Below are positions 4,635-52,184 of a DNA stretch of 64,000 nucleotides, one piece after another. This DNA is from an uncultured Oscillibacter sp. (GTDB taxonomy: Bacteria > Bacillota > Clostridia > Oscillospirales > Oscillospiraceae). The stretch's first letter is position 1. Each line of letters opens with the position of its first letter. A model generated the notes under the pieces. The model was given only the letters and a program-made list of their open reading frames with translations. It ran no database searches and was not told where the DNA came from. The stretch spans positions 62,001 to 126,000 of the forward strand of contig CANPTW010000002.1 in the NCBI GenBank assembly GCA_947577075.1, in the 5' to 3' direction. A program made the position numbers and the translations under genes.

Positions 4635-4788
4635 TGTAGTCAACGCAGCTGAAAAGAGGGGGGAACCCCTTCTTTTCAACCGGCGGACCCTTGGTCCGCC
4701 GGGGCGCAAAGCGCCCATGCGTTTCCTATGAGGTCAGGCGCCGCGCCGAAGGGAACCCGTTGGGTTCGGTTCAGCGGCGCCGACTATA
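4635..4788. repeat. Foldback repeat family A, copy 1 (MITE-like)
   Basis: TGTAGTCAACGCAGCTGAAAAG ... GCGGCGCCGACTATA; aligns across its length with 40206-40356; contains nested hairpins. Confidence 0.85.
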
Positions 4789-5140
4789 CCAGATCCTGGG
4801 TGGCCAGAACGTCCGCTCCGGTTCCGCAGAGATCGTGGATGACGACGCTTCCCATGGGAATGGGAGCCTGGGGATGGGTGGCGTAAATCTGGTTGGCACA
4901 GCGGAACAGCAGCTCCTTCGGGACCGGAGCGCTGGTTTTGACGCTGAGGGGCTTTTCCCGGTTGGCCGGGCGCATCAGGCAGGTCAGCACCCGCATGGGG
5001 GCCACGGCCTCCTGCCGGCCGTAAGCCTCGCCCCGCCGGCAGGAGGCGCCGGCCACGGAAACGGCCTGTCCCTCCGCCAGGGAAACCGTCAGGCGGCATC
5101 CCATGGGGCAGTTGATGCAGATGAATTGCTTTTCTTCCAT
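4784..5140 (-). CDS. DUF1667 domain-containing protein
   Basis: MEEKQFICINCPMGCRLTV...; 118 aa; adjacent to two FAD oxidoreductases as is typical for DUF1667. Confidence 0.85.
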   Translation of the reverse strand: MEEKQFICINCPMGCRLTVSLAEGQAVSVAGASCRRGEAYGRQEAVAPMRVLTCLMRPANREKPLSVKTSAPVPKELLFRCANQIYATHPQAPIPMGSVVIHDLCGTGADVLATQDLV

Positions 5141-39066: not shown

Positions 39067-40223
39067 CAAGAGAAGAACTCTTCCGCGCCGTGGGAGAGGT
39101 CCGGGAGGACCAGATCGAGGCGGCGGAAATCGTGAAAAAGCAGATTCACCCCTGGCGGCGCTTCGGCGCGCTGGCGGCGTGTCTGGCGCTGATCGTGACG
39201 GTGACCGCGGCGGCTGTCCCGGAAATCAGGGGCCAGCTTCAATGGGCGGCCATTGTAAAAAGCTTCAATCCCGCCGTCGAGGTGGACGAGGACCCTGACA
39301 GCTGGAAAGCGGTTGTACAGCCCTTCGGCCCCCGGGGGGATTCCGGCGGCGGAGCGGCGGCGGGGGGCCTGGACGGCTCCGACTACCGGACGGACAACCC
39401 AAACCGGCCCACCCATCCCGACTATTCCACCGGCGTGGAAATCGGCCAGCTGCCCGGCCCCGGAACCGGCGAAAGCATGATCGGCCTGTCGGCCTGCCTG
39501 GCCTGGCTGTCCCCGGAGGAGATTTTCGCCCAGGATACGGCCATCTTCCGGGGAACCGTCCGGGAGCTGCAATACTTCGTTACCGAGCCGGGATATGGAA
39601 ACATGGAGACGTATTATACCCGGGCCATTGTGGAGGTCACGGACTCCATCCGGGGAAATGTGACGGCAGGGGAGACGTACAGCCTCCTCTGGCTGGGGGC
39701 CAAGGGCTACATGTCCACTTCCATCTCCGGCCCGCTGGAAAATCTGGACGTGGGCGGAGAGGCGATCTTCATGCCCATTCCCACGGACCGGGAAACCGGA
39801 TGGAGGGAGGGGGACAGCTGCTTCTGCTACGCCGACCTGGCGGAGTTCTACCTGGGGGAAGGACAGCGCTATGTCTTCGCGGACACGGCGGATGGCCTGG
39901 AATTTGACCGGGGCGCCTACGCAGATATTGCGGAAGCGGAAACCCTGGATGAGGTAGCGGCCTATATCCGGGAGCAGATCGGGGAAGAGGAGCTTCCCCG
40001 GCGGGTTATCATCGGGGAAGAGGACGTACAGGAACCGGGGACCGGCGGACGTGACTTCGCGGAGGGGACGGAGCAGACCCGGCCCGCCTCCGAGCCCGCC
40101 GCGCCCCAGGCGGCCCCGTCGAGGACGGAGAACGCCGGGCCCGCTGTATCCGGTCCCAACGGCGCCCGGGAACTGCCCGGCGGCGCTTATGTGGGAGATG
40201 AAAGATATAGTCAACGCAGTTGA
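39063..40223 (+). CDS. Putative anti-sigma/membrane-anchored protein paired with the ECF sigma factor
   Basis: Overlaps the ECF gene by 4 nt; N-terminal cytoplasmic segment, a TM segment (FGALAACLALIVTVTAAAV) and an extracellular domain. Confidence 0.7.
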   Translation: MTREELFRAVGEVREDQIEAAEIVKKQIHPWRRFGALAACLALIVTVTAAAVPEIRGQLQWAAIVKSFNPAVEVDEDPDSWKAVVQPFGPRGDSGGGAAAGGLDGSDYRTDNPNRPTHPDYSTGVEIGQLPGPGTGESMIGLSACLAWLSPEEIFAQDTAIFRGTVRELQYFVTEPGYGNMETYYTRAIVEVTDSIRGNVTAGETYSLLWLGAKGYMSTSISGPLENLDVGGEAIFMPIPTDRETGWREGDSCFCYADLAEFYLGEGQRYVFADTADGLEFDRGAYADIAEAETLDEVAAYIREQIGEEELPRRVIIGEEDVQEPGTGGRDFAEGTEQTRPASEPAAPQAAPSRTENAGPAVSGPNGARELPGGAYVGDERYSQRS

Positions 40224-40356
40224 AAAGAAGCATACACTTCTTTTCAACCGGCGGGCCATAGGCCCGCCGGGGCGCAAAGCGCCTGTGCGTTTCCTATGAA
40301 GGCAAGCACCGTATGGAAAAGAAACCTTTGGACTCTTTTCAACTGTGCTGACTATA
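40206..40356. repeat. Foldback repeat family A, copy 2 (MITE-like)
   Basis: TATAGTCAACGCAGTTGAAAAG ... CTTTTCAACTGTGCTGACTATA; flanked by AAGA on both sides (40202-40205, 40357-40360). Confidence 0.88.
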
Positions 40357-40378: not shown

Positions 40379-40411
40379 AACCCGGGCAGGGAGGGACCCC
40401 TGCCCGGGTTT
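40379..40411. terminator. Bidirectional terminator
   Basis: AACCCGGGCAGG...CCTGCCCGGGTTT between convergent genes. Confidence 0.8.
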
Positions 40412-40421
40412 CGCAATTCTA

Positions 40422-40508
40422 GGTTGCCGTCGCTTCAGCTTGGAAAAGTACCGGACCATTAGAGCGCGTTAAAGTTCTTTTGGTTACTTTTCTTTCAAGA
40501 AAAGTAAC
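40422..40508 (-). repeat. Repeat family B, copy 2
   Basis: Minus strand: GTTACTTTTCTTGAAAGAAAAGTAACCAAAAGAACTTTAACGCGCTCTAATGG...CCAAGCTGAAGCGACGGCAACC, directly after the HIT gene stop. Confidence 0.8.
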
Positions 40509-51904: not shown

Positions 51905-52045
51905 CCATAGGAATGGGAATGTGCGTTCTAAAAAAAGGAACGCCCCGGTGCCCGGAAAGACACAAGGACGCATAGCAAATCAAAATTTGCCGCCCTCGGC
52001 AGGACTTACGGGCGGAACCCACCTGCTGTCTTTGGAACGCGACTA
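51905..52045 (-). ncRNA. Ribosomal protein L10 leader
   Basis: Structured leader directly upstream of rplJ (GCAGGTGGGTTCCGCCC...GGGCACCGGGGCGTTCC); position and sequence style match L10 leaders. Confidence 0.7.
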
Positions 52046-52184
52046 TTATTATATACAGGACCCGGCAAAAAGTCAAGCGCTGATTTTCATTTTTCTGTGG
52101 TTTCCGGAAAATATTTCCCAGGACCCGGCCGAACAGGGGAGAATCGAAAAGGGGGGACGTCAGTCCCCCCTTGTAAGTTGGTGG

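Follow-up and report, generated by a model that had tools for sequence, protein, structure and literature searches.

A candidate IS630-type miniature element whose chain of hairpins covaries across Oscillibacter and related species

Two folded segments in the window, a 64,000-nucleotide stretch of DNA from an uncultured gut Oscillibacter sp., very probably belong to a family of MITEs that is mobilized in trans by an IS630-type transposase, judging from copy number, terminal repeats, and insertion sites. The element appears to be unusual in that its chain of hairpins has seemingly been preserved by matched stem changes across many related species. We lean slightly toward selection on the folding of the DNA as the cause of this covariation, and such selection, acting during DNA propagation, fits better than an RNA or terminator function in the host. 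Taken as a whole, with most of the weight on the IS630-type MITE identity, we regard this explanation as probable.

Copy 1 (positions 4635 to 4788, plus strand, 154 bp) and copy 2 (40206 to 40356, plus strand, 151 bp) were delimited by a search of the host's own genome, alignment with about 40 copies, and folding of the DNA. The first-pass annotation had aligned the two segments end to end, and this was reproduced with a mean column identity of 81% over 230 columns including flanks; the parts it had described, namely, hairpin 1, the second hairpin, GGCGC-AAA-GCGCC, the TGCGTTTCCTATGA block, and the terminal repeats, lay where it had placed them. Copy 2 is near the family consensus, and copy 1 is older and more diverged. 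The terminal inverted repeats (TIRs) are about 22 to 23 bp long. In copy 2, the left repeat (40206 to 40228, plus strand), an exact TIR match, is 91% complementary to the right repeat (40334 to 40356), which reads TATAGTCAGCACAGTTGAAAAGA on the minus strand and was located by end-pattern match and inverted-repeat detection. The repeat is more decayed in copy 1, at 82% over 17 nt and with outermost bases TGTA rather than TATA; its left member, TGTAGTCAACGCAGCTGAAAAG (4635 to 4656, plus strand), has two mismatches to the end pattern TATAGTCARCRCAGTTGAAAAG, and its right member (4767 to 4788, minus strand) was read from the sequence.

Between these ends, all on the plus strand, inverted-repeat detection placed hairpin H1 at 4650 to 4678 in copy 1 (TGAAAAGAGGGGG/CCCCTTCTTTTCA) and at 40219 to 40248 in copy 2, and hairpin H2 at 4680 to 4702 (CCGGCGGACC/GGTCCGCCGG) and 40248 to 40270 (CCGGCGGGCC/GGCCCGCCGG). 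The A-T to G-C change in H2 that had been called compensatory, at alignment columns 50/59, was confirmed as one of 34 double-changed pairs in a 22-sequence alignment. Hairpin H3, GGCGC AAA GCGCC, follows at 4703 to 4715 (sequence and fold) and 40271 to 40283 (sequence). A middle junction, recognized as an inverted repeat and by covariation of its closing stem, occupies 4718 to 4739 in copy 1 (TGCGTTTCCTATGAGGTCAGGC) and 40286 to 40308 in copy 2 (TGCGTTTCCTATGAAGGCAAGCA). The 5' half of the junction in copy 1 pairs with the left end at 4637 to 4647, closing the left three-hairpin domain, and the junction part at 40286 to 40297 in copy 2 pairs with the left end at 40207 to 40218. Hairpin H6 of the right domain lies at 4744 to 4776 in copy 1 (inverted repeat and comparison with 192-bp copies) and at 40314 to 40342 in copy 2 (TGGAAAAGAAACC/GGACTCTTTTCAA; sequence, consensus fold, and DNA fold). 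Folded as single-stranded DNA, the copies gave z-scores of -7.98 (copy 1) and -8.47 (copy 2) against dinucleotide shuffles, and none of 200 shuffles was equally stable.

Copy 1 adjoins a DUF1667 gene on the minus strand (4784 to 5140; Pfam PF07892, E = 1.2e-22), the 3' end of which runs into the element; the TAG at 4784 to 4786 within the right repeat is the stop codon of this reading frame. Just 3' of copy 2, the sequence CCCGGGCAGGGAGGGACCCCTGCCCGGGTTT at 40382 to 40411 resembles an intrinsic terminator, and a nearby hairpin, GGTTACTTTTCTTTCAAGAAAAGTAAC (40482 to 40508), had no second exact copy among the collected loci.

The first-pass annotation had proposed a family of two copies. The family proved real and is larger, since searching the host assembly, which totals 2.79 Mb and is 83% complete, returned 40 matches, or about 40 copies of the element. 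The end pattern TATAGTCARCRCAGTTGAAAAG matched this assembly 91 times at up to three mismatches, and a reversed control pattern matched 0 times. Isolated TIR-like ends in the host genome were considered as ends of an autonomous element and rejected, as the majority belong to half-elements or fragments or lie where a contig stops. The usual genomic form is 192 bp long, and both window copies are of a short form lacking two further hairpins, H4 and H5. Lengths fall into classes of 55 to 57 bp (one hairpin), 95 to 112 bp (including monomers of 100 to 112 bp), 151 to 154 bp, and 179 to 198 bp; at 55 to 198 bp, the element is too short for a transposase gene and has no coding capacity. The 33 long host copies are 93 to 99.5% identical to the consensus, a sign of recent spread.

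A consensus fold derived from 22 diverse elements has two domains, each made of a closing stem around three hairpins, and in each closing stem an outer end is paired with the internal block TGCGTTTCCTATGAAGTC. Two closures of the ends compete: the outer ends may pair with each other, or each may pair with internal TGCGTTTCCTATGAAGTC. The internal block resembles two element ends with a common TA, TGACTATATAGTCA, which suggests that the long copies are inverted dimers. The dimer unit would consist of a good outer end, a TTGAAAAG hairpin, two GC-rich hairpins, and an inner end, and the dimer would have arisen through insertion of one unit into the TA adjoining another. The internal TGACTATATAGTCA junction may later have decayed to ..CCTATGAAGTC.., so that only the outer ends would remain for the transposase. 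The series from one hairpin to monomer to inverted dimer offers an unusually clear route for the growth of a small transposon. A second subfamily (12 sequences) has the same layout in largely different sequence, with H2 and H3 of the left domain partly recovered by alignment.

The insertion sites are those of a TA-targeting element. TA is present at both element ends, and tandem copies (loci L259 and L289) have exactly one TA in common. The site orthologous to locus L028 in genome G015 lacks the element and carries a single TA. The site orthologous to L030 lacks it in G005, G015, G033, G060, and G105; these L030 empty sites are too diverged for TA to be read, and base-level resolution was reached only for the empty L028 site in G015. 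The target duplication is thus apparently TA, as far as such site comparisons indicate. None of 39 host copies interrupts a predicted gene, and several supply the stop codon to a gene running into the terminal repeat. With gene calls from a simple custom hexamer scorer, flanking genes were divergent in 9 cases, convergent in 8, and tandem in 20. Replication-strand bias was not seen among host copies (17 of 34), a comparison for which the GC skew was too weak to be informative. The insertions at L004 and L011 have a common 17-bp left flank, GGCGGCGGCGCGGCCTT, as if it were a preferred target or an older repeat.

A plausible source of the transposase was found in other members of the Oscillospiraceae. 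An IS630-family transposon of 902 bp at locus L178 has ends TATAGT(A/C)A..CAGTTGAAAAG that match the element ends, with about 18 of 22 positions identical at the left end, and related copies at L103 and L218 end likewise. The L178 transposon has two reading frames, ORFA (HTH_Tnp_IS630) and, in the -1 frame, ORFB (DDE_3; NCBIfam IS630). A 310-bp segment at L189 (2922 to 3231) is an internal-deletion derivative of an L178-type transposon, plausibly a first step from IS to MITE. The first-pass annotation had seen no transposase near the element, correctly; neither a DDE_3 gene nor a close homologue was found anywhere in the host assembly (83% complete, fragmented), and the IS630 gene was also missing from most element-rich relatives searched. 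The link to a transposase is therefore drawn from ends and a target in common with transposons of other species, not from co-residence. IS630 copies of G034 were rejected as the partner, having unrelated ends CTAGAGCAATTCTCA; at loci L101, L107, L111, L115, and L117, that genome has another IS630 element, about 1008 bp long and recently active, to which these ends belong. IS630 elements of G072 and G003, with ends TATAGTAATCCTACTT and TATAGTTAGCSCACTTAAAAA, seemingly belong to the same lineage as the partner and were set aside as too distant. The earlier proposal of a non-autonomous element was borne out by the roughly 40 copies, the TIRs, the terminal TA, the element-free orthologous sites, and the IS630 transposons with matching ends in relatives. 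We propose that an IS630-family (Tc1/mariner-like, DDE_3) transposase would act in trans on the approximately 22-bp ends and insert the element at TA.

The stems of the element clearly covary. In the 22-sequence alignment, 34 of 72 pairs had changed on both sides against 13.6 in shuffles, and 115 double-change cells were counted against 30.6, figures that depend on relatedness (kept by the shuffle control) and on a structure taken from the same alignment and are therefore indicative rather than formal probabilities. Pairing held in 95.6% of cells and fell to 36 to 47% when partners were slid by 1 to 3 columns. The two closing stems alone, with arms about 70 nt apart, contributed 8 pairs and 20 cells with double changes, compared with 1.9 and 4.3 in shuffles, and the second subfamily likewise covaries. 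Further copies in the genome and in relatives, together with covariation above shuffles, were the observations on which the initial finding had been staked, and it withstood this check.

Within resident copies, private stem mutations mostly weaken or break pairs, while changes that separate one lineage from another are largely compensatory. Read most simply, this means that pairing counts as the element propagates and does not serve the host at individual sites. The selection on the folded form put forward in the first-pass annotation accordingly stood for propagating lineages, where covariation is strong, and not for each resident copy. The rate of private mutation did not differ significantly between stem and loop; private changes were somewhat rarer at stem sites than at TIR sites (p = 0.011 in the host genome, G000; p = 0.12 in G001), which could reflect some selection in place. 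In the proposed mechanism, hairpins and closing stems would stay paired in lineages that keep being copied, since folded DNA, as hairpins or cruciforms extruded upon strand separation, would help the element, perhaps by bringing its ends together or by keeping it inert while resident. Resident copies would afterwards decay roughly neutrally.

The alternative that survives best, although we consider it unlikely, is that mutation produced the matched arms as a by-product and the fold is unselected, perfect hairpins being regenerated at cruciforms through template switching or the correction of quasi-palindromes. Neighboring pairs changed jointly more often than expected of independent change (235 versus 154), so template switching may contribute, and young host copies carry two private compensatory changes (A18C/T39G and G48A/C60T) where a rough estimate of chance gives about 0.2. 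However, double changes are mostly of the transition type (40:21, versus 76:101 at unpaired sites; Fisher p = 0.003), which fits stepwise change through tolerated mispairs and argues against wholesale copying of arms. The long-range closing stems covary too, and most private stem changes stay uncorrected.

We give still less credence to a fold kept as RNA, that is, a co-transcribed regulatory, terminator, or mRNA-stabilizing module spread by transposition and then retained by the host. The fold is stable and strongly covarying, as a structured RNA would be, but folded DNA is equally expected to covary. Pneumococcal RUP and BOX elements are folded, and BOX is transcribed (PMC3049150). One-sided changes in long host copies showed a mild G.T excess (17 versus 7 cells, which are not independent), a weak hint of pairing as RNA; across the family, G.T and A.C in the sense strand did not differ significantly (50:41 in 22 sequences, p = 0.40; 147:132 in 79 copies), in counts that exclude an invariant T-G pair. 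The orientation of host copies relative to tandem flanking genes was 10:10, convergent 3' gene ends were not enriched among host copies, no T-tract follows the hairpins, and, as noted, private mutations mostly damage pairs. In Rfam, neither window copy had a match at the gathering threshold, and four other loci gave only chance-level matches (E up to 1). The mobile structured RNA or terminator module offered in the first-pass annotation as another possibility was thus not upheld, lacking significant strand asymmetry, orientation or 3'-end bias, T-tract, and Rfam match. The sole Rfam match in the window is a ribosomal protein L10 leader (RF00557) at 51928 to 52053 on the minus strand. A REP/BIME-like element that a Y1 (TnpA-REP/IS200) transposase moves in single-stranded form would share the many hairpins, the intergenic location, and the tandem and modular arrangements, but it is highly improbable here, as the present element is not a short single hairpin without TIR or TSD and has true 22-bp TIRs, is bounded by TA on each side, includes tandem copies with a common TA, and has ends in common with an IS630 DDE transposon.

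The proposed IS630-type MITE is closest in kind to RUP, of which it is a variant set apart by its length and GC content, by a dimeric layout in two domains, and by how deeply it covaries. One paper (PMC2229807) describes RUP, with IS630-Spn1, as an intergenic MITE of about 100 copies with TIRs matching the IS630 transposon and a TA target, and end matching to IS630 and the TA target are the same in the present family. The RUP transcript has a tight fold with the TIRs paired (PMC3049150), and a systematic stem-loop survey recovered no above-threshold shared structure for RUP (PMC2267715). RUP is 107 bp and AT-rich, whereas the element described here reaches 198 bp, is GC-rich, and is an apparent inverted dimer with a two-domain fold covarying across species. 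The same paper (PMC2229807) describes Correia/NEMIS of Neisseria as a short, folded, intergenic MITE with TIRs and TA at its termini, all features of the present element too; NEMIS differs in sequence and architecture and has a proposed role in RNase III mRNA processing, no counterpart of which was indicated here. It also describes Caulobacter CIR repeats as two folded arms joined by a linker, a layout that resembles our two-domain model, but the CIR repeats are about 110 bp with GANTC methylation sites and, in that account of them, no IS630 link is described, unlike the present element, which is linked to IS630 by its ends. BOX of Streptococcus pneumoniae is a modular composite MITE with a varying number of modules (PMC3049150); the present element is modular as well, and BOX has a different sequence and TIRs weakly similar to ISSpn2. 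We found no description of the present family in the open-licence literature.

Folding is commonly attributed to bacterial MITEs, but in the literature searched we found little published evidence of MITE pairing conserved by compensatory change. Strong covariation over many species and subfamilies makes the role of folding, in mobilization or for the host, directly testable. It also carries a warning for RNA discovery, as a covariation-based screen would label this family a structured RNA, and strand symmetry and random orientation indicate mobile DNA. More tentatively, and with less confidence than in the main explanation, an elaborate folded DNA form, with two three-hairpin domains produced by inverted dimerization, might itself be required for, or greatly favor, transposition of a DDE (IS630/mariner-type) MITE, its pairing covarying across hosts like that of an RNA.

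Related elements are present in many gut Oscillospiraceae of the host's genus. Matches occurred in 11 of 60 genomes of relatives (host counted), every one in the host's genus, and further carriers turned up among 86 congeners. Across 251 genomes from other genera of the family, G137 alone had full-length copies, and one further member of its genus gave a partial match. Named carriers are mostly MAGs labeled Oscillibacter, Dysosmobacter, or Oscillospiraceae, in an end-pattern scan in which some matches are IS630 ends and not the MITE. Phages and plasmids searched gave no match to the element. Two diverged copies with near-identical flanks (L035 and L052, on contigs C1 and C130 of G016) suggest a duplicated region or assembly variants. 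In a JAAWIL MAG (for example, L131, L152, L155, and L167), many contigs stop about 75 to 180 bp from the terminal repeat of the element; short-read assembly seems to fail there, and copy numbers are thus probably underestimated. A clean-ended solo monomer, about 100 bp long, was observed at positions 358 to 457 of L224, in an uncharacterized IMG/VR viral contig.
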